A stretch of 22,678 nt of DNA from IMG/VR virus record IMGVR_UViG_3300027712_000740, positions 1 to 22,678 of that record; one strand, written 5' to 3'. The stretch is from a virus. Of this stretch, positions 1-22,678 are shown piece by piece. Below the pieces are notes generated by a model. That model was not told where the DNA came from. It saw only the letters and a list, made by a program, of their open reading frames with translations, and did not search any database. How positions within the stretch are numbered: the stretch's first letter is position 1; every line of letters starts with the position of its first letter. Position numbers and translations under genes: made by a program.

Positions 1-1180
1 CTAAAGTGTTATTTTCCACACTATAATAAATGCTAGGCGTAACACCCGCTCGTGTGCATTTTTCTTCAATGTGTTTCAACATATCCCGCATAATACGAAC
101 TTGGCTTTGTATAGGTGTCAAGTTATGATGCCACTCTGCAACTTGTTCCATACTAGGAATTTCAAATATTTCAATAGCGCCAAAATCCCCACCTGTTCCT
201 AAACTAGGATCTAAACTAACAAGGTATGTAAACTTGGGATTGATCTTTTTATACCAACGGGCTTGACCCATTTTCATTTTAGGTTCAACACCTTCTAATG
301 TAGTCAAGCACATACTGCTAATTAATGTTTCGTCAAAGATCAAAAATTTACATTCGTGTTCACGTTCAAACTGTTCGTCACCCAACTGAGCACGCATTTC
401 TTTGGCCCATTTTTCATCACGGTCTGGATGTTGATTCCAAATGGCCATATATGGATAGTAGCCATTTTTGCCTAGTAGTGTAGTATTGCCAAATTCGTCA
501 GTACGATTGTTTGCTTCATTCCAAATCAACGCAAACTGATCTTCGTCGCTGTTTGGAGTACTGGTAATAATAGCCTTACCGCCTGTTGCTAGTGTAGGAG
601 CAATGGAAGTCCAGAACTCAGTGGCAATGTTTGGTGGAACGTATGCAAACTCGTCGCAGTATAGAAGCGATATAGACATACCACGACCAGTTGTTTCAGT
701 TGTTGTCTGCGCTACGATACGTGAGCCGTTTTCAAATTCAATACTTTGCTTGTTATAGCTGGTAACACCTGCACGAACAAAGTCGGGACAGGTTTCATAT
801 GCGTAACGCAAACGCTGCATAATTTCTTGTGCGCCCGAATACTTGTGAGCACAGATTAAAATGGTACTGTCTGGAACAAACATTGCGTACCATAGCAAGT
901 ATCCAACAGCAGTGGTTGTCTTTCCCATCTGTCGTCCCAACATATTAACGCTGAAACGATTTGTATGATAACTGTATAATAATTCGTCTTGGTAATCAAA
1001 TGCATCGTATTTGATTTTACCTTTTTTGGCGTGTTGGATAAAGAAGAAATTCTTTAAGAAATACTTAGGCCCATCTACAGGATCCATACACGCGGCCATA
1101 TGTGCCAGATCTTCATCTGTCCATCGTTGTGTTGTGTTTGCCTTTTTTATTAAGACGCCATCTAAATTTTTTGATCCCAT
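1..1180 (-). CDS. gp17: Terminase large subunit gp17, C-terminus cut by window edge
   Basis: This is the ATP-driven DNA packaging motor and headful nuclease that docks on the portal. I translated about 393 residues from the ATG at 1180; the C-terminal end lies outside the window. Visible ATPase motifs are Walker A GRQMGKTT (about residues 82-89), Walker B LLYCDEFAY (D176/E177) and the coupling motif TSTPN (206-210). The RNase H-like nuclease begins with SLDPSLG (D324), then GGDFGA (D332), and SVENN near 387-391 supplies the expected second acidic position. These follow T4 gp17 in order and spacing. The gene is separated from its partner gp16 by two other genes and by a terminator. It has no Shine-Dalgarno sequence; a GTAAATA late promoter ends 5 nt before the ATG, so its transcript is probably separate and leaderless. 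Confidence 0.96.
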   Translation of the reverse strand, partial: MGSKNLDGVLIKKANTTQRWTDEDLAHMAACMDPVDGPKYFLKNFFFIQHAKKGKIKYDAFDYQDELLYSYHTNRFSVNMLGRQMGKTTTAVGYLLWYAMFVPDSTILICAHKYSGAQEIMQRLRYAYETCPDFVRAGVTSYNKQSIEFENGSRIVAQTTTETTGRGMSISLLYCDEFAYVPPNIATEFWTSIAPTLATGGKAIITSTPNSDEDQFALIWNEANNRTDEFGNTTLLGKNGYYPYMAIWNQHPDRDEKWAKEMRAQLGDEQFEREHECKFLIFDETLISSMCLTTLEGVEPKMKMGQARWYKKINPKFTYLVSLDPSLGTGGDFGAIEIFEIPSMEQVAEWHHNLTPIQSQVRIMRDMLKHIEEKCTRAGVTPSIYYSVENNTL

Positions 1181-1185
1181 AATGT

Positions 1186-1192
1186 TATTTAC
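1186..1192 (-). promoter_or_regulatory. Late promoter of gp17 (GTAAATA), 5 nt before ATG
   Basis: On the minus strand GTAAATA is followed by ACATT and then the gp17 ATG. T4 late promoters (TATAAATA) start transcription about six bases after the motif, which would place the start at the A of the ATG. The motif lies directly after the U-run of the terminator at 1195-1222, so gp17 appears to be an independent unit. The function is inferred from the motif and its spacing. Confidence 0.6.
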
Positions 1193-1194
1193 TG

Positions 1195-1222
1195 AAAAAA
1201 ATAGCCTCCGAAGAGGCTATTT
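1195..1222 (-). terminator. Intrinsic terminator with UUCG loop, upstream of gp17
   Basis: Read on the minus strand, a perfect 10-bp stem (AAATAGCCTC paired with GAGGCTATTT) closes a TTCG tetraloop and runs into a T tract of about seven. It lies 18 nt after the stop codon of the 330-aa gene and would end that operon's transcript just before the gp17 promoter. Confidence 0.88.
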
Positions 1223-2839: not shown

Positions 2840-3328
2840 TTATTTATTCAGATTCTTGAGTTTTTCCAGAATGCTATTACGATCTGTTAGTATATAGCCC
2901 TGTCCTTCAATAGGATCATCACCGCCACCTTTGTCGCCATTCTTACGGTCAATGGCCAACTTTTTAAGTTGCAAATCAACCATCTTTAATTTCTTATCAA
3001 TCTTGTTTGTCTTGGCCTGTATTGCAGCATTCATCATCTGTGCCGCTACTTCAAACATCTTAGTACCATAACGGGCGTCTACATTCATACCTAGATCCAT
3101 TAAATCATCATATGCTTGTTCTGCTTTGTTGGCCAACGCATCTAGTTCGGCATCGCTAATATCGCCTAGACCTTTTACTCTAGGCAAGGCTGCGGAAATT
3201 TTATCAAATTCTTCTAATTTATCCTGTAGATCAATCAAAGGAGTTGGTGTAATTTCCTCTGGTTGTGGCATCATAGGAGGCTCATTGTTTTCAGGTAAGT
3301 TGAAAAGTTCTTCAAGTTTTTTGGTCAT
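2840..3328 (-). CDS. gp16: Terminase small subunit gp16
   Basis: This is the DNA-recognition subunit that forms a ring and regulates gp17. At 162 aa it matches T4 gp16 (164 aa). It has an acidic, Pro-rich N-terminus (1-35), a helical central section (about 60-130) containing LMDLGMNVDARYGTKMFEVAAQ and AKTNKIDKKLKMVDLQLKK, which is the coiled-coil oligomerisation core typical of T4-like small terminases, then a Gly/Asp-rich linker and a short C-terminal helix. It follows gp4 by 4 nt and has no clear Shine-Dalgarno sequence, so translation may be coupled to gp4. In T4, gp16 directly precedes gp17; here two genes and a terminator separate them. Confidence 0.88.
   Translation of the reverse strand: MTKKLEELFNLPENNEPPMMPQPEEITPTPLIDLQDKLEEFDKISAALPRVKGLGDISDAELDALANKAEQAYDDLMDLGMNVDARYGTKMFEVAAQMMNAAIQAKTNKIDKKLKMVDLQLKKLAIDRKNGDKGGGDDPIEGQGYILTDRNSILEKLKNLNK
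2841..2847 (-). promoter_or_regulatory. Possible late promoter (ATAAATA) before the 199-aa gene
   Basis: AATAAATA on the minus strand ends 7 nt before the ATG at 2833. It overlaps the last codons and stop of gp16, where coding constraint (Asn-Lys-stop) could create it by chance. The spacing also differs from the 5 nt seen at four other genes, so this is only a candidate. Confidence 0.3.
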
Positions 3329-3782: not shown

Positions 3783-4162
3783 GCTAGGATGTTTCGTTGA
3801 ACTTCGTGATAAGGTTTGATTGCAGAGGAATATCCCAGAAAACTACTTTTAAATCTATTGTAATTTAATATCTGTGTGGCCAGTTCACTTATTTCTAACC
3901 CATCTAAACCAGTTAGGCCATCTAGTACTGTCATTGGGTTGTATCCATCAGTTTGCGCCTGTGTTATAATAATTGCAGCAATAGCATTTGAAGTTGTGAT
4001 ATCAAACCCACGACTTTCAAAAAATCCTGTCATAGCATTTAATGTTCCTGCATCAAATTCAGTAGGTGCAGTATAATAACTGTTGAATGATTGTACTGTA
4101 CCATTACTAGTGTATATACTGGGTGTAGGAGTGGTTGGTAAATTACTGTAGGTGGTTTTCAT
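3779..4162 (-). CDS. Small virion protein of unknown function
   Basis: This 127-aa protein lies between a tube-fold tail protein and gp4, overlapping both by ATGA, so the three genes are translationally coupled. The N-terminal 35 residues are rich in Ser, Thr, Pro and Asn and probably disordered. The rest appears helical, with a recognisable core (DAGTLNAMTGFFESRGFD, then AIAAIIITQAQTDGYNPMTVL and LATQILNYNRFKSSFLGY). Similar small proteins occur at this place beside gp4 in aquatic T4-like phages, where they are called structural; I infer the same here. There is no signal peptide; the short hydrophobic AIAAIII run is too short for a membrane span. Confidence 0.75.
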   Translation of the reverse strand: MKTTYSNLPTTPTPSIYTSNGTVQSFNSYYTAPTEFDAGTLNAMTGFFESRGFDITTSNAIAAIIITQAQTDGYNPMTVLDGLTGLDGLEISELATQILNYNRFKSSFLGYSSAIKPYHEVQRNILA

Positions 4163-5235
4163 ATGTTACCGTTTTTAAATGTTCTATTTTGTTCTGGCAG
4201 AGGTTCAGTGGTAACACTGGCGGCGGCAGCAAAAACCGCATCACTAAGTGCATTAGTTAGTACATTCTTTGGATTAAAACCATATACTTGCCAAGCCAAT
4301 CTTGGATTTTCCAATAACTGTCTTGCAACACCCACAGCCCGTAATGTAGAACCTATTGCTAATAGTGATTTTGATAATTCACCAGTACTTGGTGGTTTAA
4401 CTACATCCAACGGTGGTCTAAAATCAGTCTCTTCTAAAATAGATCCAGAGCGTGCACCCAAGTTTGGTGCCCCGTAAATCAATGTACTGGGAGTGTTGTC
4501 GCGATACTCGTTGGCAAGTCCAGTTAAATTTGTTAATGCTACGTTGGTTCCAATTGTGCCCTCTTGATAAAATACGTCTTCGTACATTAGGGACATACTA
4601 TTTTTTAAAAATTTGCTGCCGTTTTCCTGATCCAATGAATCATGTTCCCACGATGTTATTAGGGGATTGATCAAAGACATTTTGGTATAGTTGTTCTGAT
4701 GCAATACAAAAATATCAATACTTGTAAAAAAAGATTTCTGTTTTGCATTTTGATAACCATATTGATAATCTATTGTACCAAATTTAGTATCACTCAATTC
4801 TTTGGCAGTTTCATTTTTCTTAGGAGAATAATTAGGATCGGTATAATAATATTTGAAATAGTTTTTCCAAAGCCCAGTTGTGTTTGATGCCATATCATCG
4901 TGGAATTCAAGTTTTACAGGTTCATAATTAAGTTTGGTTTGTATATTTGTTTTTCTATTATATTGGTTGATAGTTTCAGTGGCAATTTTAAATTTGGGCA
5001 ATTGAACGTTCTTTGCCAGTAATCCTGCTGCTAAGTTATCCCAACCATCTAGTTTTGCTTCTTTATTAATATTGAAATACACATAATATAAAAATGCTGA
5101 TTTAGGAGTAAGAGCTGAGTTATTTGAACTATATAACTTAGATGCGTGATTAGAACTACGCAACCACGGGCGACCGTATTCACCTGTAGTATAGGGACCG
5201 GCGGCTTCTTGACTGATGTTACTATTATTGGGCAT
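4159..5235 (-). CDS. Tail-tube-fold structural protein, possibly gp54-like tube initiator
   Basis: This 358-aa protein has the features of tail-tube-fold proteins: LLAKNVQLPKFKIATETIN (about 71-90), then YNRKTNIQTKLNYEPVKLEFHDD (92-114), then FFTSIDIFVLHQNNYTKMSLINPLITSWEHDSLD later, the strand order seen in gp19/gp54-type proteins. It is longer than gp19 and has a C-terminal helical tail with Ala-rich segments, which resembles T4 gp54 (320 aa), the baseplate protein that starts tube assembly. The gp54 assignment is inference; a generic virion structural label is safe. It follows a terminator and has no Shine-Dalgarno sequence; ATAAATA ends 5 nt before the ATG, predicting a leaderless transcript. 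Its stop overlaps the next start. Confidence 0.85.
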   Translation of the reverse strand: MPNNSNISQEAAGPYTTGEYGRPWLRSSNHASKLYSSNNSALTPKSAFLYYVYFNINKEAKLDGWDNLAAGLLAKNVQLPKFKIATETINQYNRKTNIQTKLNYEPVKLEFHDDMASNTTGLWKNYFKYYYTDPNYSPKKNETAKELSDTKFGTIDYQYGYQNAKQKSFFTSIDIFVLHQNNYTKMSLINPLITSWEHDSLDQENGSKFLKNSMSLMYEDVFYQEGTIGTNVALTNLTGLANEYRDNTPSTLIYGAPNLGARSGSILEETDFRPPLDVVKPPSTGELSKSLLAIGSTLRAVGVARQLLENPRLAWQVYGFNPKNVLTNALSDAVFAAAASVTTEPLPEQNRTFKNGNI

Positions 5236-5240
5236 AGTTA

Positions 5241-5248
5241 TATTTATG
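5241..5248 (-). promoter_or_regulatory. Late promoter (CATAAATA), 5 nt before ATG at 5235
   Basis: On the minus strand CATAAATA is followed by TAACT and the ATG of the 358-aa tail gene. This differs from the T4 late consensus TATAAATA only at the first base. It sits between the terminator at 5253-5281 and the start codon, copying the arrangement at gp17. Confidence 0.65.
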
Positions 5249-5252
5249 TCAT

Positions 5253-5281
5253 AAAAAAACCCCAGATTTTAGCCTGGGGTT
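5253..5281 (-). terminator. Intrinsic terminator after tail tube gene gp19
   Basis: On the minus strand an 8-bp stem, AACCCCAG paired with CTGGGGTT, encloses an 8-nt loop and is followed by a T run (seven Ts counting the stem end). It lies 17 nt after the gp19 stop codon and ends the gp18-gp19 transcript. Confidence 0.88.
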
Positions 5282-5912: not shown

Positions 5913-5938
5913 TTATATGCTCCTTATTCTTTTACTTT

Positions 5939-8992: not shown

Positions 8993-9024
8993 CTTACAAA
9001 ACTCCTTAATGGATTACTTTGTTT

Positions 9025-9031
9025 TATTTAG
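9025..9031 (-). promoter_or_regulatory. Late promoter of gp18-gp19 (GCTAAATA)
   Basis: GCTAAATA on the minus strand lies 32 nt before the gp18 ATG, leaving a leader that contains the strong AAGGAGT ribosome binding site. Unlike the promoters of gp13, gp14 and gp17, this one gives a conventional leader. Confidence 0.6.
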
Positions 9032-10110: not shown

Positions 10111-10869
10111 TTAGCCAGTTACCCAAGTAAGTGGTTGACTGCCTTCTTTGTAGTTGATTAGATCTAACTCAAGTTGATCCATTTCTGCTTTGGCTTCTGC
10201 CTTAAGTGTGGCACCATTTAACCCTGATCCGCCTTGTGGACTAGAAATAGTAGGAAATTTTTCACGTGCCTGGCCTAGCATCATTTTGGCATTGGCTAGT
10301 GAATAGTCTTTTAACCACTGGCCAGCATATACATCTTGCAGCAAATTAAAATCTGGGCGATAATTGTACATCCAAACTAGTAATTCTTCACTAGTCTGTG
10401 CACGTTGTTGTATTGTTAACATTTTGGTAGTGGGATTAAAAGTAAAATTAATGTCACTACCAAACATTTTACCCACTTGCTTTTGATATGATGCAAATGA
10501 ATAGTATGTGGCCAAGCCGCCCATATTAGTACTTGCTAACAAATAAGTATTAGAATATGCTAAATTGAACGGTTCAAATAAACTGCCACCATCTCCTCCG
10601 CCACTTCTACTTCCAATGCTACGTCTAAACAACTGTCGTACGCTCATTACTTCTTTGGGCAGTTGATATTCATTAACATCTGTCGTTAATGTTAAAAAGC
10701 CCATACTTTCCTCTACAGCATTACTGCTACGTTGACGGTATTTAGACAATGCTTTATCAATAGCAATAGTATAATCTCGGGGATCTAGTTCCACATCAAC
10801 CATACTTCCGCCTAGGAAAGCATTGATGTATTCTACGATTTGTTCACGGGCTTGTATAGTTTCTTCCAT
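10111..10869 (-). CDS. gp13: Neck protein gp13
   Basis: gp13 works with gp14 in the head-tail neck. The protein is 252 aa against 309 in T4. The N-terminal helical REQIVEYINAFLGGSMVDVELDP section, the IDKALSKYRQR segment and the C-terminal WLKDYSLANAKMMLGQAREKF, a Gly-containing loop, an acidic helix and the final TWVTG all follow the T4 gp13 pattern. A Gly/Ser-rich loop lies near 85-97. It starts divergently from gp14 over a 47-bp spacer. It has no Shine-Dalgarno sequence: CTAAATA ends 5 nt before the ATG, so the message is probably leaderless. In T4 genes 13, 14 and 15 are consecutive on one strand; here gp13 faces away from gp14 and gp15. Confidence 0.87.
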   Translation of the reverse strand: MEETIQAREQIVEYINAFLGGSMVDVELDPRDYTIAIDKALSKYRQRSSNAVEESMGFLTLTTDVNEYQLPKEVMSVRQLFRRSIGSRSGGGDGGSLFEPFNLAYSNTYLLASTNMGGLATYYSFASYQKQVGKMFGSDINFTFNPTTKMLTIQQRAQTSEELLVWMYNYRPDFNLLQDVYAGQWLKDYSLANAKMMLGQAREKFPTISSPQGGSGLNGATLKAEAKAEMDQLELDLINYKEGSQPLTWVTG

Positions 10870-10874
10870 ACAAA

Positions 10875-10881
10875 TATTTAG
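10875..10881 (-). promoter_or_regulatory. Late promoter of gp13 (CTAAATA), 5 nt before ATG
   Basis: GGCTAAATA on the minus strand is followed by TTTGT and the gp13 ATG. With the T4 late-promoter geometry, transcription would begin at the start codon. Confidence 0.65.
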
Positions 10882-10904
10882 CCAATTACTACAACCACAG
10901 TGGG

Positions 10905-10911
10905 CTAAATA
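10905..10911 (+). promoter_or_regulatory. Late promoter of gp14 operon (CTAAATA), 5 nt before ATG
   Basis: GGCTAAATA on the plus strand is followed by TACGT and the gp14 ATG at 10917. It is the only late-type promoter I find for the plus-strand group gp14, gp15 and Nudix hydrolase. Confidence 0.65.
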
Positions 10912-10916
10912 TACGT

Positions 10917-12122
10917 ATGACCAGGCTCAGTTTATACCGCCCCGAAAAAGGCAAAGATTTTAAATTCATCGATCGTGTAGTTAACGAACGCTTTCAAGTG
11001 GGTGGCGTGGATGTATATATCCACAAATACCTAGGCCCAGTTGATCCTGCAACTGGCACTGCTACACCCACTACCCCCACAAATGCCAATCCCATTAAAG
11101 AATTAGGCATTCAAGATGTATTGTTTATGGAAACTAGGGATCGCAATTATGATCCGGATGTATATGTACTCCGTGGCATTTATACAATGCAAGATTTAGA
11201 TTTTAATCTAAGTCAATTTGGCCTGTTCCTACAGAATGATACTATAATGATGCACTTTCATCTTAGTACCAGTGTTGATGCATTAAGTCGTAAAATTATG
11301 GCCGGTGACGTCATAGAATTGCCTCATTTAAAAGACGAATATGCAATGGATGACAACTATGTAGCGTTGAAACGTTTTTACGTTGTCCAAGATGTAAGTC
11401 GTCCTACAGCAGGTTTTAGTCAAACTTGGTATCCGCATTTATTAAAAGCCAAATGCGTACCATTAGTTGACAGTCAAGAATTTAAACAAATATTGGATCA
11501 AGACAGCGGTAATGGCGATGGCAGTAGCCTACGTGATTTGCTATCTACATACAATAAGAGTATTGAAATCAATGATCAGATTATTGAACAGGCCATGGCA
11601 GATGCGCCTGTTAGCGGGTATAATACTAGAAGTTTTTATGTTATACCAACTCGTGATAATGGCTTGATCGACGTTGCTGATACTAGTGATATTTGGAGTG
11701 ATGCCAGCATCGACCAGTCAATATTAGATGCCAGCGCAGTTTTACGTAGTCCCAAAGGAACGTTATATCTAGGATATAACACAGGTAATGGAATTCCACC
11801 AAACGGTGCACCATTTACACAAGGATTAGAATTTCCACACAGTCCTGCAAACGGGGCATTTTGTTTAAGAACTGATTATATTCCTAACAATTTATACAGA
11901 TATAATGGCAAAGTTTGGTCCTTGTATTCTACCAAAGTTCAAATGACATTGAACGAGTTTGGCTATGAAGATGTTGCCAGCGGCGTGTTTGCTGGCCAAG
12001 ATGTACGTTTGACCGAAAAGACTGGATTTATTAATAACAATAATACCACTACAGTACACGGAAGCATTGTACCAGAACGCCAAGCATTAAGCAAGGCATT
12101 AAAGCCAGTAGCAGATAATTAA
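10917..12122 (+). CDS. gp14: Neck protein gp14 with C-terminal extension
   Basis: gp14 joins gp13 to complete the neck that receives the tail. Residues 1-190 fit the family: FKFIDRVVNERFQVGGVDVYIHKYLGP, the FMETRDRNYDPDVYVLRGIY section, FGLFLQNDTIMMHFHLS, and GDVIELPHLKDEYAMDDNYVALKRFYVVQDV followed by WYPHLLKAKCVPL. The protein is 401 aa against 256 in T4. Most of the extra length is C-terminal (about 230-400) and includes SPANGAFCLRTDYIPNNLYR and then YNGKVWSLY (309-337), a module like those inserted in gp18. Ala/Thr/Pro-rich residues 41-58 form a linker-like loop. It has no Shine-Dalgarno sequence and probably a leaderless message. gp15 follows at once. Confidence 0.86.
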   Translation: MTRLSLYRPEKGKDFKFIDRVVNERFQVGGVDVYIHKYLGPVDPATGTATPTTPTNANPIKELGIQDVLFMETRDRNYDPDVYVLRGIYTMQDLDFNLSQFGLFLQNDTIMMHFHLSTSVDALSRKIMAGDVIELPHLKDEYAMDDNYVALKRFYVVQDVSRPTAGFSQTWYPHLLKAKCVPLVDSQEFKQILDQDSGNGDGSSLRDLLSTYNKSIEINDQIIEQAMADAPVSGYNTRSFYVIPTRDNGLIDVADTSDIWSDASIDQSILDASAVLRSPKGTLYLGYNTGNGIPPNGAPFTQGLEFPHSPANGAFCLRTDYIPNNLYRYNGKVWSLYSTKVQMTLNEFGYEDVASGVFAGQDVRLTEKTGFINNNNTTTVHGSIVPERQALSKALKPVADN

Positions 12123-15291: not shown

Positions 15292-15322
15292 ATTATCTCC
15301 TTAAGAATGACGATTTCAGTAA

Positions 15323-15330
15323 TATTTATA
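15323..15330 (-). promoter_or_regulatory. Perfect T4-type late promoter (TATAAATA) of the 98-aa gene
   Basis: TATAAATA on the minus strand is identical to the T4 late consensus. It overlaps the stop codon of the sulfotransferase gene and lies 31 nt before the ATG at 15291, leaving a leader with AAGGAG placed 6 nt from the start. It would allow the last three genes of the operon to be expressed late. Confidence 0.75.
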
Positions 15331-16207
15331 GTTGTTTGCCTAGCGTAGGTAGTATCTTTTTAGCACCTGGCGCCGTTTGCATACCTGTGATCCAATTTAA
15401 GTTTTTCTTTTGATCAAAGTTTTGTTTCCAAAAACTCTTGGGGCTGTATGTATCCCATAATTCGCCTGGCAAAATACTACGTCTTTCTTTATATTCTACT
15501 CGTCGACGCACAGTATGCAATCCTGTTATTTTAGCCTGAACGTCAAACTCGTCGTAACTATCTTCAACATTTTCAAAATCATGCTCATACCAAGATTCGC
15601 CTAAGAATTGATAAATTTGTTGAAGTACAGCTTTGGGATTTTTAACCAGTGTGTCATATTCTACATAACAAATTTGATTAATTTCGTTACAAAACATACT
15701 TTGCTGTACGTTGATTAACGGTCCGTGAACATAGCCACCAAAGTTTGGCACCTTTCCCATTAACATACTGCATCGATCGTGAATATTGCCCAACTCTTGA
15801 TGATGATATAACGGTTTGATTGTATGGGGATTCTTTGCATTGAGTTGTTCAAAGCTATCCAAGATCCACGGAACATCTCTAAGACAAACAATCATCTTAA
15901 AGTCGGGGAATAAATCTTTTAATAAAGCAGTGTCTGCACTCCAACCACGATTGGTATTAAAGCATACTTGGTTACCATATTTGTAAAAGCTATCAAATAG
16001 GTCACGCATTAGTTCACGTCGCCGTTCAAGCGGAACTGCGGCATCCATTCCTACGGCAGTATTAGTATCTTTAGTGATACTATGCATATAGCTAGCCAAA
16101 GGATCACTTATTCCTGCTGTAAATCTAGGATTCTGTTTTAAGATGGCACTTAATAAGGTTGATCCAGATCTAGGTAATCCAGAAATAAAGTGGTAAGTTT
16201 TGCTCAT
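15326..16207 (-). CDS. Sulfotransferase family protein (PAPS-dependent type)
   Basis: This 293-aa protein fits the cytosolic-type sulfotransferase fold, which moves sulfate from PAPS to a hydroxyl or amine, here probably on a sugar. The 5'-phosphosulfate loop is SGLPRSGSTLL (9-19), at the very N-terminus. The 3'-phosphate site is IVCLRDVPWILDSF (106-119): R110 and S118 have the Arg-x7-Ser spacing of known sulfotransferases. YVEYDTLVKNPKAVLQQIYQFLG is the conserved later segment. Its ATG overlaps the stop of the carbamoyltransferase gene (ATGA, 16204-16207). The acceptor is unknown. A second, diverged sulfotransferase lies at 20279-21079. Confidence 0.9.
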   Translation of the reverse strand: MSKTYHFISGLPRSGSTLLSAILKQNPRFTAGISDPLASYMHSITKDTNTAVGMDAAVPLERRRELMRDLFDSFYKYGNQVCFNTNRGWSADTALLKDLFPDFKMIVCLRDVPWILDSFEQLNAKNPHTIKPLYHHQELGNIHDRCSMLMGKVPNFGGYVHGPLINVQQSMFCNEINQICYVEYDTLVKNPKAVLQQIYQFLGESWYEHDFENVEDSYDEFDVQAKITGLHTVRRRVEYKERRSILPGELWDTYSPKSFWKQNFDQKKNLNWITGMQTAPGAKKILPTLGKQL

Positions 16208-17901
16208 TTATTTTTCTTAACAAGTTTACCAACATCGGGCAAATACAAATATTCAATATCACTGTTAAACAAAGTAACTAATGCATCAATAATTGTTTCA
16301 ACTAGTGGCTGGCCAGCTAGATTAAAACTAGTATTGAACAACAAAGGCACCCCTGTGAGTTTTTGGAACTCACTAATCAGTTCATAGTAATGAGGATTTT
16401 GATCTGGATTGACAGTTTGCACTCTGCAAGTATTATCTACGTGTGTTACTGCTGGAATTTGTTCAATTTTATCTTCACGAACATCTACAGCATACATCAT
16501 AAATGGACTAGATGTCATTCCTGCCATATCAAACCATTCATTAGCGTGTTCTTCTAAGACAGATCCAGCAAATGGGCGGAACCATTCGCGACGTTTAACA
16601 CGATTAACAAAGTCTTTGCCATCAGGTCTACGTGGATCAAACAATATACTACGATTGCCTAATGCACGTGGGCCTCCCTCTGCACGACCTTGGAATAGTG
16701 CAACAATATTTCCTTGATCAATTAACTGTGCAATATCGCTAGCAGTCGCATCAACAACTTCAGCATTAAGTTTATTTTGTTCAATTAAACTTAATTGACT
16801 ATAATCAGGAGGAGCACTTAGATATACTGTAGATAATTCTTTTGGCGTAGTTTCTAAAGATTGAACAAACCAAGCATACCTTGCAAGACCAATAGCAGTG
16901 CCGCCATCGTGAGCAATGGGGTCAATATAGAACTTCAAATTAGGAAAACGTTTAACAAATTTATAATTTGCCACACAATTTAGACCAAAACCTCCAGAAA
17001 TAACCACGTTTGTTTCACCAGTAATATCAACAGCCTTTTGTATTAGATCATACATCTGTTCTTCAACAGCCTGTTGTACGTGATATGCAAGATTCTTATC
17101 CACATCACGAATAAGATTAAAATCGTTATGCCATTCTTTAGGTTCAGCAAAACGTTTCAAATAAGGATTACGGTTTTCGTCAATACGTGCGCCAGCAGGA
17201 TATAATGGCATCAATAAATTCTTATTGCCCTTACCATTAATAAAAAATTCAGGAATATATTCATCGCGCTCGCCGTATGGCGCAAGCCCCATAGTCTTAC
17301 CCGCTTCGATAAAGCCAAAACCTAGATAATCACTCACTGCTTCGTACGCTTTGGTAATAGTTACTGAGTTATCAAATTCTTGGATACCGTTATCATAATA
17401 TGCAGCATTGCCATCTGCATAACGTTTGTATACTGCATTAAATTCGTGAGGATAGGAACATTGATAAATTGTTTCAGTTTCAAATCCCCCTACTACAAAG
17501 TTTTCATTTACTTGTTCTTGATGAAATGACCCAGCGCCGTCCACAATAATTGCTACCGCAGAGTCAAAACCTGACCCATAAAATGTATTTGCTGCGTGTC
17601 CTAAATGATGTAAATGACCCATCTTTGTAATTTTAACATTAGGATTGAATTTACGGGCAAGTGCAGAATACGCATCTTCTCCAGTCCACGGTAATTGTGA
17701 TAATTGATTAGTGGTCCCGCCAATAACGATTTCATCAACTACGTGATTGATTAAAACGTGTATCATTGCTCTAAATGGATTGCCGTCATATTTCATACGG
17801 CTTAATCTTTCTTCTTCTGAATAATAAACAACTTCGCCGTCGACTACTAGTGCAGCCGAACCGTTATGTCCAGGATTAATTGCTAAAATGCTGTATGTCA
17901 T
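16204..17901 (-). CDS. O-carbamoyltransferase (NodU/TobZ/CmcH family)
   Basis: This 565-aa enzyme is full length for the family, which uses carbamoyl phosphate and ATP to carbamoylate a hydroxyl group through a carbamoyl-adenylate. The N-terminal domain begins ILAINPGHNGSAALVVDG and has MGHLHHLGHAANTFY (94-108, metal-binding His residues) and IIVDGAGS (118-125). GKTMGLAPYG (201-210), GGFGLNCVAN (303-312) and HDGGTAIGLA (331-340) follow. The C-terminal domain holds the RAEGGPRALGNRSIL motif (406-420), REWFRPFAGSV and FNTSFNLAGQP. All key motifs are intact. In this cluster the acceptor is probably a sugar; modified DNA bases are an alternative. It overlaps the GT9-like gene as TAATG at 17899-17903. 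Confidence 0.95.
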   Translation of the reverse strand: MTYSILAINPGHNGSAALVVDGEVVYYSEEERLSRMKYDGNPFRAMIHVLINHVVDEIVIGGTTNQLSQLPWTGEDAYSALARKFNPNVKITKMGHLHHLGHAANTFYGSGFDSAVAIIVDGAGSFHQEQVNENFVVGGFETETIYQCSYPHEFNAVYKRYADGNAAYYDNGIQEFDNSVTITKAYEAVSDYLGFGFIEAGKTMGLAPYGERDEYIPEFFINGKGNKNLLMPLYPAGARIDENRNPYLKRFAEPKEWHNDFNLIRDVDKNLAYHVQQAVEEQMYDLIQKAVDITGETNVVISGGFGLNCVANYKFVKRFPNLKFYIDPIAHDGGTAIGLARYAWFVQSLETTPKELSTVYLSAPPDYSQLSLIEQNKLNAEVVDATASDIAQLIDQGNIVALFQGRAEGGPRALGNRSILFDPRRPDGKDFVNRVKRREWFRPFAGSVLEEHANEWFDMAGMTSSPFMMYAVDVREDKIEQIPAVTHVDNTCRVQTVNPDQNPHYYELISEFQKLTGVPLLFNTSFNLAGQPLVETIIDALVTLFNSDIEYLYLPDVGKLVKKNK

Positions 17902-18830
17902 TATTTTGTCTTTCTATCAATGTCTGCTACAATACTACTGTAAATAGAATTCAATTCTATATCGCTAAAATTCATAGCGTTTTCATTTAACCGATTGGAT
18001 AGGGATACATCCAAACCTGCAATACGAATTGGGCTGTATTTTCTAATCTTACCCATATCGATACAATTGAAATAGTCGGGATAACTTGTATTAATTGGGA
18101 ATGTACTACCAAAGATAACTGATCCAGGTGTACCTACGGCTCGAGCCAAATGCTGGCCCACTGAATCACATCCAATAAAGTAATCAGCTTCTGCAATCAA
18201 TGCGCCCCACTGACGCAGATCGCACGTATATTTCTGTGCGTATGTATCTTGTTTTAATTGAAATTCTGGTTCGCCAAAGAAAACCATATTATATTTTTGT
18301 GACAATTTACGAACTAAGAACAAATAATCTTTTTGTCCAAGGCTGCGACTTTCTTCGTCGATAACTTGCTCACGATCCATTTTGGCACCACGGCCAAATG
18401 GTTGGAAGATAACAGTCTTAGGACGTTTTTGCAAATTCTTTAAATCGTTGATTGTATTTTCTGCAACTAATTGTTCTTGACGATTGAACACCAATGAAGG
18501 AACACCAAGATCGCTATGATCAGTAGTGTTGTTGATCTCACGGTCAAATGCTTGTACCAAACTAATTTCTTGACGGAAGTATGCAGGATTACGATATGGC
18601 TCGGGGGTAATAATTAAATCTGCATTTTTAACTACGTTATCGAACACACCTTTAGTGTCCAAATTATATGCACGATCTTGTAATTCTGGAATACCCCAAA
18701 GCAAGAAGTCCCACGCCCCAATTAGTACTGCCCAATCTGTATTAGGATTTAATCTGTTGTATTTTAACAAAGCAGGAATTGCTGCTACCACACGGCCTGC
18801 ACCGCCATCGATCCAAAATATCTTCTTCAT
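17901..18830 (-). CDS. GT9 / heptosyltransferase-like glycosyltransferase
   Basis: This 309-aa protein resembles GT-B enzymes of the ADP-heptose:LPS heptosyltransferase family. It has an N-terminal Gly loop (IDGGAGRVVAAIPALLKY, 7-24), the inter-domain strand TVIFQPFGRGAKMD (139-152), and the sugar-nucleotide site ADYFIGCDSVGQHLARAVGTPG (215-236) followed by VIFGSTFP. It is slightly shorter than bacterial heptosyltransferases (about 330-350 aa). The ATG has an AAGGAAA ribosome site. It is first in a coupled set with the carbamoyltransferase and a sulfotransferase, so the same glycan may be built and decorated by these three. Donor and acceptor are unknown. Confidence 0.82.
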   Translation of the reverse strand: MKKIFWIDGGAGRVVAAIPALLKYNRLNPNTDWAVLIGAWDFLLWGIPELQDRAYNLDTKGVFDNVVKNADLIITPEPYRNPAYFRQEISLVQAFDREINNTTDHSDLGVPSLVFNRQEQLVAENTINDLKNLQKRPKTVIFQPFGRGAKMDREQVIDEESRSLGQKDYLFLVRKLSQKYNMVFFGEPEFQLKQDTYAQKYTCDLRQWGALIAEADYFIGCDSVGQHLARAVGTPGSVIFGSTFPINTSYPDYFNCIDMGKIRKYSPIRIAGLDVSLSNRLNENAMNFSDIELNSIYSSIVADIDRKTK

Positions 18831-18849
18831 TATATGTTTCCTTGTCTAT

Positions 18850-18856
18850 TATTTAA
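18850..18856 (-). promoter_or_regulatory. Possible late promoter (TTAAATA) of the GT9-carbamoyl-sulfotransferase unit
   Basis: ATTAAATA on the minus strand lies 19 nt before the ATG at 18830, in the only gap (57 bp) within the upstream glycan genes. A short leader carries the AAGGAAA ribosome site. A 4-bp hairpin (GCAG/CTGC, 18860-18873) precedes it but has no T run. Confidence 0.45.
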
Positions 18857-18887
18857 TGCGCAGTTAATGCTGCTTAACAATTCTTGA

Positions 18888-20282
18888 TTAGCGGTACCAG
18901 AACCAAACATTCTTACTAGTATGTTGTATTTCTGTAGTAATGTCAAGCTCTTTTCTAAAATCATTTACTGCTCGATTTACTTCAGGCAAGTTCCAATCGT
19001 GTCCTGCAAATATCCCGCCAGGTTTTACTTTGGACCAATATGCTCTAAGATCTCGGCTCACTGCGGCATAGCTGTGGTCACCATCAATAAAAATATAATC
19101 CAATTCATTATCTGCAATATGATCTGCCGCTGCAATAGAATCCATCTCTAACATTTCAATTTGATCTGCATAGGGGGCAAGCAAGCTAACAGCGTGATTA
19201 CGCCACACATCAACCATATCCTGTGTCACAGGTCCCCACCAATCTTGATATGGCTGGTAAGCATCAATAGCATAAACTTTATTAATTTCACTGGAGTGGT
19301 CTAAAAAGTACCTCAATGTCCAGGCCCAACATACTCCTAGTTCACAGCCAACTAAATTTGTGCCTAATTTTTTAATATAGGCCAACAGGCCATCTGCACT
19401 TACCTTATCCATAGGAACTATACTATTACCCTGTTTAATCCATAACATCTGTTTAATCATACCAGTGAAATTATTATTTTGAAAATAATTCCATAGTTGG
19501 TATTTGTCTGCTACACGTCTTGCATCGCCGCCAGTCAATAATAAATTTGTTAACTCACTACCCCAAAGTTCAACAAATCTTTGATAATATTGAGTATCAC
19601 GCTGTTTAGTTTCTTGTGCAGTTTCTACCCCACTCCAACTGCTTTTTCCTTGAAAGTGCAGCAGATAAGATTGACTAACGTACTTTACATCAAATCCTGC
19701 TTGAATAGCTCTGATTCTATAATCAACATCTTCCCCGCCGTGACCGTACAACTCATCAAAGCCGCCAATTTTCTTATAAATTTTAGAAGGAATTTTAACA
19801 GCGTAAAACGGTATGAGGTGGCGGTCAAATAGACCTGGTTTAACTGAGGATTTATGTTGACGTACTATATTGTTTAACTCATACTCATTGTATTGATCAA
19901 TATTCATCGCCGATTCTAATGTAAAATTATCACTAGAATATATATGAGTTTGATTGCAACTTGGCACAACAATACAGTTACTATATCCTTGAAGAGGCAC
20001 AGCCCAATCAGGAGTAAATGCAATATCATTGTTTAAGATTACAACATCTTTACCATCAGCCAATGCAATAATTTTGTTAACATTTTTAGCAAAATTCTGC
20101 GGCACTTCATTTGCAATAATCGTAACTGCTTTATCACCGTGTGCACCAACTGCATCGTTATCAATTAGATAAAATTTATCATCAGGTCCAAGTTTTGTAT
20201 ATTTTAAAAATGTATCAATTGCAAGGCCTGTATAAAAATCAGATTTTGCAGTAGATATAATTGCGTAAACAGTACCTTTCAT
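18888..20282 (-). CDS. Glycosyltransferase (GT2-type) fused to SAM methyltransferase
   Basis: This 464-aa protein has two domains. The N-terminal GT-A domain (about 1-225) shows VVILNNDIAFTPDW (the NND metal site, 84-86) and GGFDELYGHGGEDVDYRIR (173-191, the ED catalytic motif). The C-terminal domain (about 290-464) is a class I methyltransferase: LVGCELGVCWAWTLRYFL (310-327, Gly-rich SAM loop), VYAIDAY, LDYIFIDGDHSYAAVSRDL (394-412) and PGGIFAGHDW. It could add a sugar and methylate it. I start it at the ATG at 20282, which has GGAG 6 nt upstream and forms an ATGA overlap with the sulfotransferase gene, instead of the TTG at 20294. A 57-bp gap follows it. Confidence 0.9.
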   Translation of the reverse strand: MKGTVYAIISTAKSDFYTGLAIDTFLKYTKLGPDDKFYLIDNDAVGAHGDKAVTIIANEVPQNFAKNVNKIIALADGKDVVILNNDIAFTPDWAVPLQGYSNCIVVPSCNQTHIYSSDNFTLESAMNIDQYNEYELNNIVRQHKSSVKPGLFDRHLIPFYAVKIPSKIYKKIGGFDELYGHGGEDVDYRIRAIQAGFDVKYVSQSYLLHFQGKSSWSGVETAQETKQRDTQYYQRFVELWGSELTNLLLTGGDARRVADKYQLWNYFQNNNFTGMIKQMLWIKQGNSIVPMDKVSADGLLAYIKKLGTNLVGCELGVCWAWTLRYFLDHSSEINKVYAIDAYQPYQDWWGPVTQDMVDVWRNHAVSLLAPYADQIEMLEMDSIAAADHIADNELDYIFIDGDHSYAAVSRDLRAYWSKVKPGGIFAGHDWNLPEVNRAVNDFRKELDITTEIQHTSKNVWFWYR

Positions 20283-21079
20283 TTCTTTCTCCAAAATTCT
20301 AAATGCATATTTCTATACATATTAGTCAACTCTCTGCCAATAACTTCTTCAGGTGGGGGACTGGCTTTCTTCAATGTAGGCCTAACATCGTGTAGTCCAA
20401 CAAGGCCGCCGTGAAACCCATCATTCTCATCCATGGGCTGTAGATTATTTGTATCTAATTTAAATGTATCAATGTTGATAAAATTACAAATCTTATCAAT
20501 AGTTTCTTGACCATTGCCTACAATATCTTTGTATTCTAAAAATAACATTTCAACATCGCCCGAATTAACACCAATACGTAAACTAGTATAAGGATGGGAG
20601 ATGTATTTTTCCCAAAGTATTTTACATCGATTTTTAGTGTTGACTGGTAAACCCGAATCAATTAAATCCTGGTCGACGAATGTAACTCTATCATTATTAC
20701 GCTCAATCAATAAACAGTATGATGCTAGAATATCAGGAATACTACGAACCGTACAAATAATCAATGGCTTGAATCCAAACACTTGTCTAGTAATGGCGCC
20801 ATATCTGGGCCACAATCTATTTTTATCAACGATTGTTTGTTTATCAATATGTTTATATGCACCATCGATTGCACCCAACATAATATTGCTGTACTGTTTG
20901 GGGTGCGGATCAACTAATGCTTGACTAATATTAGGCCACTGTTCGCCAATTATGCCAACTAGGTCTGCTACTGGGCTGGTAGTTGATGCATATATTTCTG
21001 GATGTTGATTTAACATTGAACTGAGTACTTGACTGCCAGATCTAGGAATTCCAGAAAGCATAACAAAATTCTTGTTCAT
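20279..21079 (-). CDS. Second sulfotransferase family protein
   Basis: This 266-aa protein has the same layout as the sulfotransferase at 15326-16207: SGIPRSGSQVLSSML (9-23) as the 5'-phosphosulfate loop and LIICTVRSIPDILASY (106-121) as the 3'-phosphate site, with R112 and S120 at the expected spacing, then MLFLEYKDIVGNGQETIDKICNF. Identity to the first copy appears low outside these motifs, so they probably act on different acceptors. The C-terminal section GLHDVRPTLKK resembles GLHTVRRRVEY of the first copy and suggests a shared subfamily. It overlaps the genes on both sides by ATGA, so translation is coupled. Confidence 0.88.
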   Translation of the reverse strand: MNKNFVMLSGIPRSGSQVLSSMLNQHPEIYASTTSPVADLVGIIGEQWPNISQALVDPHPKQYSNIMLGAIDGAYKHIDKQTIVDKNRLWPRYGAITRQVFGFKPLIICTVRSIPDILASYCLLIERNNDRVTFVDQDLIDSGLPVNTKNRCKILWEKYISHPYTSLRIGVNSGDVEMLFLEYKDIVGNGQETIDKICNFINIDTFKLDTNNLQPMDENDGFHGGLVGLHDVRPTLKKASPPPEEVIGRELTNMYRNMHLEFWRKK

Positions 21080-21798
21080 AATTGTCTACGGGGCAACGAT
21101 GGAATTTTAGGCACAACAGGTTTTACTATTGCGGGCGGAGTAATAGTTGCGGGTCGGCCAGCTTTGGACCAAACAGAATAATCACCTTGGAATTTATAAG
21201 GACCGATGTGACTGCAAGTCATACTGGGATCTAACCAAATTTTAAATCCACCGTCTATTAATTTTTGTAATGCATAAATGTCTTCACTCATCAAATCGTT
21301 ATCAGTTACAATGACATCAAAAATCATTCTGCGTTCTTTGTTGTCTTTCTTGTCAATATAAGATTTATTAGTATCCCACAAGTATTGCATTGCCTTACGA
21401 TTCATACGTAGGAACCCAGTCCCTAAACCTTGAACTTCTATTAAGCCAGTTTTTGAATCAATTGGACCAGGGACTCTAACAACATACTCTTCTCGGTCAC
21501 CTTTTTTTCGATAAGTGCCGCCCACAACATCAACTGGATATTCTAGCAGTTTGAAGAACCATTCAGGTTGCCATTCGATGTCACTGTCAATCCAGATGAG
21601 ATCGTCGATGCCTGTTTCCAATGCAATATGAATAGTATCATTACGGGCACGCTGTATTAATGCATCAAAGCTGACCCACATTGGGGTGATTTCTACGTCG
21701 TGTTTGGCTGCTTGTTTAATAGTGTTTACTAAACTATTCGTATACCAAACATCTAATCTTCCGTCGTAGCACGGAGTACCTATCATTACTTTACGCAT
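21076..21798 (-). CDS. GT-A fold glycosyltransferase with DSD motif
   Basis: This 240-aa protein resembles the small GT-A glycosyltransferases common in T4-like aquatic phages. It has MIGTPCYDGRLDVWYTNSL at the start, LIQRARND (47-54), the metal-binding LIWIDSDIEWQPEW (67-80, D71/D73), VDVVGGTYRKK (89-99), the GLGTGFLRMNR stretch, SEDIYALQKLIDGGFKIWLDP (171-191) and CSHIGPYKF with a likely metal-binding H197. The C-terminal 25 residues are Pro-rich and probably disordered. Donor and acceptor are unknown. It overlaps its neighbours by 13 and 4 nt in the operon. Confidence 0.85.
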   Translation of the reverse strand: MRKVMIGTPCYDGRLDVWYTNSLVNTIKQAAKHDVEITPMWVSFDALIQRARNDTIHIALETGIDDLIWIDSDIEWQPEWFFKLLEYPVDVVGGTYRKKGDREEYVVRVPGPIDSKTGLIEVQGLGTGFLRMNRKAMQYLWDTNKSYIDKKDNKERRMIFDVIVTDNDLMSEDIYALQKLIDGGFKIWLDPSMTCSHIGPYKFQGDYSVWSKAGRPATITPPAIVKPVVPKIPSLPRRQL

Positions 21799-22678
21799 AT
21801 TTTATTAAAAAACTCCAACCATTCTCGAGCACGAGTGTGCCAAGAATATTGTTCATTGAACCAAAGACTTTGTTCATTTATAGTATAGCTGTTAGCCCAA
21901 TATGAGTCAATGGCAGCGTTTAGCGTTTCTGCATATCTTTCTGCCAAAAGATCCAAATCATCGCCGTATTGATAATCAACGTAAGTTGCCCATTTATCAC
22001 AAGTTTCGGGTAGTGCTCCTAGATCAGTAGTTACAATTTTACATCCTGCTGCACCCGCTTCTATGGCAGCAAGGCAACTGGTTTCTTCATATATGCTAGG
22101 GTAGGCTAATATATGGCTTTGCTGTAATGCTTGTCTCACTGCCTTGTTCATTGCATACCCACGATAAATTATGCCGGGAGTCGTACGACATTGATGAAAT
22201 AAATGGTCGTGAGCGCCAGCAAGCTGATTGCTATATCCCTTACCATAAATTATATTACTGGAAAATACTGTTAGTTCAATATCTTTTCTATTGAGTATTT
22301 TAAACGCCTTGAGCAATACTTCCAAACCTCTATTTGGTGTAGAAGTATATATCAATTTAATTTTATCTTTTGGTTTTTCTTTAAACTCGATGGGCTCTAT
22401 AGCATTTTTGATTACGTGATTTTGACTTAGATTGATAGGGAATCTATTTTGAAATTGGGCCAGTTGCCAATCGCTAACATAAACAAAGTGATCAATGGCT
22501 TCTATAAAATTAGTGTCAGCCATTCCTGCAATTGCACCTTGATCGTAGGCAAGATGTTGCCAAACAACATTAACACGATTGGGATCAATGTATGCAGGAT
22601 CACACACGCTTAGAACAAGATTGACTTTTCTTTGCCAATCTTGTCCAGCGTATTTTAAGAGATTATTGTTTAATATTT
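21786..22678 (-). CDS. GT4-family glycosyltransferase, N-terminus outside window
   Basis: The reading frame stays open to the window edge, so the start and the N-terminal Rossmann domain's beginning are missing; the GTG at 22607 is internal, not a start. Visible features are VYVSDWQLAQFQ (acceptor domain), KIKLIYTSTPNRGLEVLLKAF at the start of the donor-binding domain (the usual Gly-x-Leu segment), GIIYRGYAMNKAVRQALQQS, and the HILAYPSIYEETSCLAAIEAGAAGCKIVTTDLGALPE signature, in which E-x7-E falls as in retaining GT-B enzymes. It is the most upstream glycan gene seen, and the operon probably extends beyond the right edge. Confidence 0.87.
   Translation of the reverse strand, partial: ILNNNLLKYAGQDWQRKVNLVLSVCDPAYIDPNRVNVVWQHLAYDQGAIAGMADTNFIEAIDHFVYVSDWQLAQFQNRFPINLSQNHVIKNAIEPIEFKEKPKDKIKLIYTSTPNRGLEVLLKAFKILNRKDIELTVFSSNIIYGKGYSNQLAGAHDHLFHQCRTTPGIIYRGYAMNKAVRQALQQSHILAYPSIYEETSCLAAIEAGAAGCKIVTTDLGALPETCDKWATYVDYQYGDDLDLLAERYAETLNAAIDSYWANSYTINEQSLWFNEQYSWHTRAREWLEFFNKICVK

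Follow-up and report, generated by a model that had tools for sequence, protein, structure and literature searches.

Late promoter boxes five nucleotides before the start codon point to leaderless late mRNAs in an uncultured clade of T4-related phages

The window analyzed here is a viral DNA stretch of 22,678 nucleotides (IMG/VR record IMGVR_UViG_3300027712_000740, positions 1 to 22,678). Matches to phrog profiles identified genes for gp13, gp17, gp18, gp19, and a gp4-like protein, and the window therefore derives from a T4-related myovirus. The nearest isolates, as judged from the terminase, are distant jumbo phages, with identities of 55% to PA5oct relatives, approximately 50% to Sinorhizobium phage Phosso, and 48% to Atu_ph07. 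The gene for a gp13-like neck or head-tail adaptor protein (252 aa; 10111..10869, minus strand; phrog_211) diverges from that of a 401-aa protein (10917..12122, plus strand) matching phrog_11591, “virion structural protein”. The partner had been named gp14 in the preliminary description, a name that is unsupported, as comparison of the window proteins with phrog profiles gave no match to any T4 gp14 family. The spacer between the two starts, at 10869 and 10917, is 47 nt and carries a perfect 10-bp inverted repeat (10874..10912) with arms ATATTTAGCC (10874-10883) and GGCTAAATAT (10903-10912), which can be extended to 17 nt each (10867-10883 and 10903-10919) at 88% complementarity. Each arm contains a gp55-type TAAATA late box, at 10875..10880 on the minus strand for gp13 (context GGCTAAATAT) and at 10906..10911 on the plus strand for the 401-aa gene (context GGGCTAAATAT). 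Both boxes end 5 nt before an ATG and are kept in relatives. These coordinates confirm, in the window, the earlier observation of mirror-image divergent late promoters with identical spacing. Both genes are predicted to produce leaderless mRNAs, with +1 at 10869 and 10917, respectively.

The same 5-nt spacing had been noted for two other genes, and the sequence agrees. The large terminase gp17 (2..1180, minus strand, cut by the window end) has its box at 1186..1191, 5 nt from the ATG at 1180, and a 358-aa tail-tube-like protein, which is a second gp19-like protein (4159..5235, minus strand), has its box at 5241..5246, 5 nt from the ATG at 5235. Both are predicted to be leaderless. On the same strand, a strong intrinsic terminator consisting of AAATAGCCTCTTCGGAGGCTATTT and a T run (1199..1222) lies 7 nt upstream of the gp17 box, where it would cut off read-through leaders, and another, AACCCCAGGCTAAAATCTGGGGTT and a T run (5258..5281), lies 11 nt upstream of the 358-aa box. 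Four window genes thus have TAAATA ending exactly 5 nt before ATG, where 0.02 are expected (P ~6e-9). A box missing from the preliminary description precedes the 199-aa gene (2841..2846, minus strand); it lies 7 nt before the ATG at 2833, an offset that recurs among relatives, and overlaps the stop codon of the preceding 162-aa gene. The leadered class is represented by the sheath gene gp18, with its box at 9025..9030, 32 nt from the ATG, and AAGGAG at 9002..9007, and by a 98-aa gene, with its box at 15323..15328, 31 nt from the ATG, and AAGGAG at 15297-15302 (both genes on the minus strand). The AAGGAG leaders first reported for gp18, gp19, and the 98-aa gene are all present, that of the tail tube gene gp19 at 5920..5925 on the minus strand, but within the window no TAAATA box belongs to gp19. 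Overall, the hexamer is about two-fold rarer in the window than in shuffles (17 occurrences vs an average of 35.8), as would be the case under selection against spurious late promoters. Few late boxes occur at 15326-22678, where the structural block is followed by a cluster of sulfotransferase-like (identified by eye), carbamoyltransferase (phrog_1601), and glycosyltransferase-like genes. The start codons are probably correct, as alignments to distant homologues begin at residues 1-8.

The window was compared with approximately 200 related contigs and three large genomes. Start codons were taken from a simple ORF scan, with crude gene calling, and most loci were retrieved via gp13, gp17, and the 401-aa gene, so that these families are over-represented, which the family counts correct. 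Because the loci are related and raw counts are not independent, the family counts are the safer figures. Evenly distributed spacing had been named earlier as grounds for rejecting the idea; across this set, the distances from box to ATG are not evenly spread but bimodal, with a sharp peak at 5 nt and a broad class at 16-36 nt accompanied by Shine-Dalgarno sequences. The first 36 related contigs and the window together gave 30 distinct starts at 5 nt, and no other offset had more than 6. Over 2.5 Mb of related contigs, the distinct starts at 5 nt comprised 297 ATG, 1 GTG, and 1 TTG, and same-composition hexamers produced no 5-nt peak. Counted by protein family, a box at 5 nt is found in 39 and one at 4 nt in 21, and no other offset exceeds 18. 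Each of the large genomes G001, G002, and G004 (280-355 kb) has its own 5-nt peak, made up of 12, 20, and 16 genes, respectively (including two short ORFs that begin with GTG), together with the broad leadered class. Searching nine clade genomes for the bare pattern TAAATA-N5-ATG gave 125 occurrences vs 25 for the reversed control. Chance in AT-rich DNA is rejected by the same-composition hexamers, the reversed-pattern control, and the outgroup genomes.

We next consider how such boxes might function. Each of the seven large clade genomes has genes for a gp55-type sigma factor (phrog_12791, E 1e-81 or better, and phrog_234) and a Gp23 capsid protein; the sigma evidence comes from these genomes, as the window is too short to show that of its own phage. 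The TAAATA core is found in both the 5-nt and the 16-36 nt classes and stands before virion genes (neck, terminase, sheath, and tube-like), as in a T4-type system. The T4 late promoter TATAAATA occupies positions -13 to -6 (PMC1524935; PMC2988020). A phage sigma of the gp55 family would direct the host RNA polymerase to the TAAATA late box, and because the last A of the box would be -6 in T4 numbering, a 5-nt spacer would place +1 on the A of the ATG. The four window genes, and about one third of the box-driven genes of the clade, would then give late leaderless mRNAs that start with 5'-AUG and use the 5'-AUG route of translation instead of Shine-Dalgarno pairing. Another group, with the same box 16-36 nt upstream, would give Shine-Dalgarno leaders and hold the high-copy sheath and tube. 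Bacterial RNA polymerase usually prefers a pyrimidine at -1 and a purine at +1. At 5-nt boxes, the base before the ATG is T or C in 37/39 families vs 64/122 in the leadered class (P 3e-7), and the same comparison without gene calling gave 111/125 in the clade vs 42/78 in the outgroup genomes (P 3e-8). This Y(-1)A(+1) signature supports a +1 at the A of the AUG, and it would also discourage slippage to -1. From the T4 register and the signature combined, we infer a 5' end at or near the AUG. The leadered class has no clear Y(-1)R(+1) at the T4 register, so its exact choice of +1 may vary. No pyrimidine bias was seen in the 21 protein families with a box 4 nt before the ATG.

Leaderless translation is associated with a preference for AUG and the absence of a Shine-Dalgarno sequence (PMC9031893). 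The 5-nt starts are almost exclusively AUG rather than GUG or UUG, and SD-like sequences precede 17/275 near genes vs 288/390 leadered genes. The earlier statement that the 5-nt genes have no Shine-Dalgarno sequence stands as an observation, but the geometry of the short spacer partly forces it. A phage initiator tRNA would favor leaderless mRNAs; bacterial initiator tRNAs are not known to begin with G, and all four tRNA-Met(CAT) genes that were read do, so no phage initiator is claimed. Late leaderless mRNAs driven by a gp55-type sigma, as a variant of the T4 late system, are the most likely reading of the 5-nt genes, with a probability of about 0.82. The leaderless mode proposed in the preliminary description is thus favored by the bimodal spacing, the AUG-only starts, the Y(-1)A(+1) signature, the terminators upstream of the boxes, and a box-to-ATG distance that is kept while the spacer drifts, all of them products of sequence comparison.

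Among the relatives, the mode follows the gene family. Boxes are near (4-9 nt) in 94/99 gp13 neck genes, 77/79 genes for the 358-aa protein, 67/80 for the 401-aa protein, and 56/71 for the terminase. Leaders are found in 85/86 sheath and 48/48 tube genes, mostly with an SD-like sequence. The major capsid gene is Shine-Dalgarno-led and lacks a nearby box of its own; it has AAGGAG in the three genomes where the full reading frame was read. To judge from the strong AAGGAG of the capsid, sheath, and tube genes, the host appears to use Shine-Dalgarno pairing. We assign no host, as scanning genome contigs with the terminase gave no match and a capsid scan matched MAG contigs of unrelated phyla. In T4 virions, the near-type and leadered-type proteins correspond to low-copy and high-copy components. 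The two translation modes originally suggested, leaderless for moderate products and Shine-Dalgarno for abundant ones, therefore hold as a pattern across families, but their purpose is another matter. Because the near class also includes peptide deformylase, HNH nucleases, and unknown proteins, we put forward a tuning of protein amounts only as a hypothesis. Tentatively, and with the odds somewhat against it, one late sigma could serve two modes conserved by family, leaderless for low-copy and Shine-Dalgarno for high-copy proteins, and virion stoichiometry would be set in part by the distance from promoter to AUG, possibly with the help of a phage bS21 and peptide deformylase. An equally serious reason is the compaction of promoter space, which explains part of the pattern. 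Compaction alone, acting through the same leaderless mechanism and without any role in protein amounts, is a genuine contender at just short of even odds; it concerns purpose and overlaps with the explanation favored here. It fits divergent spacers of down to 24 nt, leaderless genes that often directly follow a terminator, and leaderless genes for enzymes outside the virion. The stability of the mode by family across divergent phages speaks against it, with sheath and tube essentially always leadered and the 358-aa and neck genes nearly always near. As with the actual 5' ends and the route of translation, dose tuning or compaction is a reason that we infer.

Several genes related to translation were also observed in the large genomes. 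Peptide deformylase genes (G001:280741-281193, G002:63745-64200, and G005:64407-64862) start with TAAATA-N5-ATG in all three cases, and a fourth copy is present in G006. Ribosomal protein bS21 genes are encoded by the four largest genomes (G001:37144, G002:347482, G003:134235, and G004:15466) and were not found in the three shorter records of the seven large genomes scanned. Since bS21 contacts the region of the Shine-Dalgarno helix (PMC9723584), a phage copy might influence how the two modes are balanced. In each of the three large genomes that were read completely, ARAGORN reported putative permuted tmRNA-like genes (L221:5174-5753, L225:7244-7616, and L241:7573-8023).

It is improbable, but worth weighing, that transcripts of the near genes carry leaders of just 1-4 nt, or start at mixed positions, instead of beginning exactly with 5'-AUG, in which case translation would still be effectively leaderless. 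Boxes at 4, 6, 7, and 8 nt occur in 21, 11, 12, and 9 families, the contigs L029-L036 keep an 8-nt spacer between box and ATG, and the leadered boxes have no fixed +1, all of which would suit such leaders. The sharp excess at exactly 5 nt and the pyrimidine before the A in 37/39 families argue for the exact 5'-AUG start. Within the 401-aa family, a box at 7 nt is commoner than one at 5 nt (41 vs 16), which implies a 2-nt leader or a shifted start. Some relatives differ again in this family (L010, at about 5978, and L014-L017): the N-terminus of the homologue has no in-frame ATG or GTG and no nearby TTG, and the likely start is ATT, with aaggag or aggag about 7 nt upstream. Here, a leaderless AUG seems to have been replaced by a Shine-Dalgarno-led AUU start.

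Read-through from upstream promoters, with SD-less starts on AU-rich leaders and a secondary role for the nearby box, is very unlikely. Phage operons are often read through, and sigma-70-like sequences do exist in this DNA, but at the level expected from shuffles (54 vs 54.2). Against this reading, the gp17 and 358-aa boxes each have a terminator immediately before them, gp13 is transcribed away from the 401-aa gene, and the starts are AUG-only. More broadly, a terminator lies within 70 nt upstream of the box in 116/329 near genes vs 15/427 leadered genes and 0 in shuffled sequence, a ratio not to be over-read, as the scan used a simple rule of our own and a few gene families are over-represented in the near class.

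The inverted repeat itself is weak evidence taken alone, because the window has four 10-bp inverted repeats and simple shuffles give 0-6. Among relatives, the spacer of the gp13 and 401-aa pair ranges from 24 to 47 nt while the box spacing is kept (5 nt for gp13; 4, 5, 7, or 8 nt for the 401-aa gene), and the two boxes of L191 directly adjoin each other as TATTTATAAATA, forming a 24-nt two-way promoter. As the gap between the arms drifts to zero and the distance from box to ATG is conserved, the symmetry of the repeat is best seen as a by-product. That the repeat acts as a hairpin, a terminator, or a dimeric operator for both genes was rejected as extremely improbable: the arms are perfect over 10 bp, but the gap between them is unconserved, and two relatives, L023 and L089, have the gp13 box at a distance of 17-19 nt, followed by an SD-like leader, with the box of the partner still at 5 nt. 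By this comparison, the repeat is without a role of its own, and the pair at 10867-10919 is a minimal two-way promoter formed by the two divergent boxes.

Phage leaderless translation is mostly known from single genes, and leaderless transcripts also occur in other jumbo phages such as phiKZ. We found no published leaderless late genes driven by gp55 in searches of an open-access library, which is not proof of absence. If an entire late class is leaderless in this abundant uncultured clade, promoter position would be tied directly to translation mode, and dose control via the presence of a leader would become testable. There is also a practical rule for annotation: when TAAATA ends 5 nt ahead of an ATG, that ATG is probably the genuine start, and for several of the genes studied here a gene caller that takes the longest ORF overlooks it.

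The leaderless genes of Deinococcus-Thermus likewise have a -10 element few bp before the ORF (PMC12340547). Their promoters, of the form TANNNT, are served by the cellular RpoD and not by a phage late sigma. The leaderless cI mRNA of phage lambda uses host sigma-70. It is a phage leaderless mRNA too (PMC9031893), but concerns one gene rather than a genome-wide late class. Late promoters of the T4 type lack a -35 element and are activated by the sliding clamp gp45 via gp33. The clade shares with T4 a -10-type box of the TATAAATA form and the gp55-type sigma. However, perfect boxes in T4 lie 13-34 nt from the ATG, with one at 52 nt and none nearer, whereas the clade has a large set of genes at 5 nt. 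Position -12 is always A in T4 and is A or C in the clade, where the T at -13 is unconserved. The bare pattern occurs 10 times in T4 vs 5 for the control, and just 2 of its starts at 5 nt lead into an ORF of at least 80 aa. The whole genomes of Aeh1, KVP40, S-PM2, 121Q, PA5oct, Atu_ph07, and SCTP-2 have no clear 5-nt excess over control. At gp13 and its partner, GGCTAAATA matches the late promoter variant CTAAATA of Aeh1 (PMC1524935, PMC2988020), but the Aeh1 genome contains a single TAAATA-N5-ATG. Homologous gp13 and 401-aa genes are present in PA5oct, Atu_ph07, and SCTP-2, with TAAATA upstream in PA5oct and Atu_ph07, and in those two phages a longer leader separates box and gene, in most cases containing an SD-like sequence. 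Atu_ph07 keeps the divergent pair with longer leaders, and both genes are leadered in PA5oct. In neither T4 nor any of the other relatives examined did we find the two-mode layout, and from this comparison the leaderless starts look like a derived feature of the clade.
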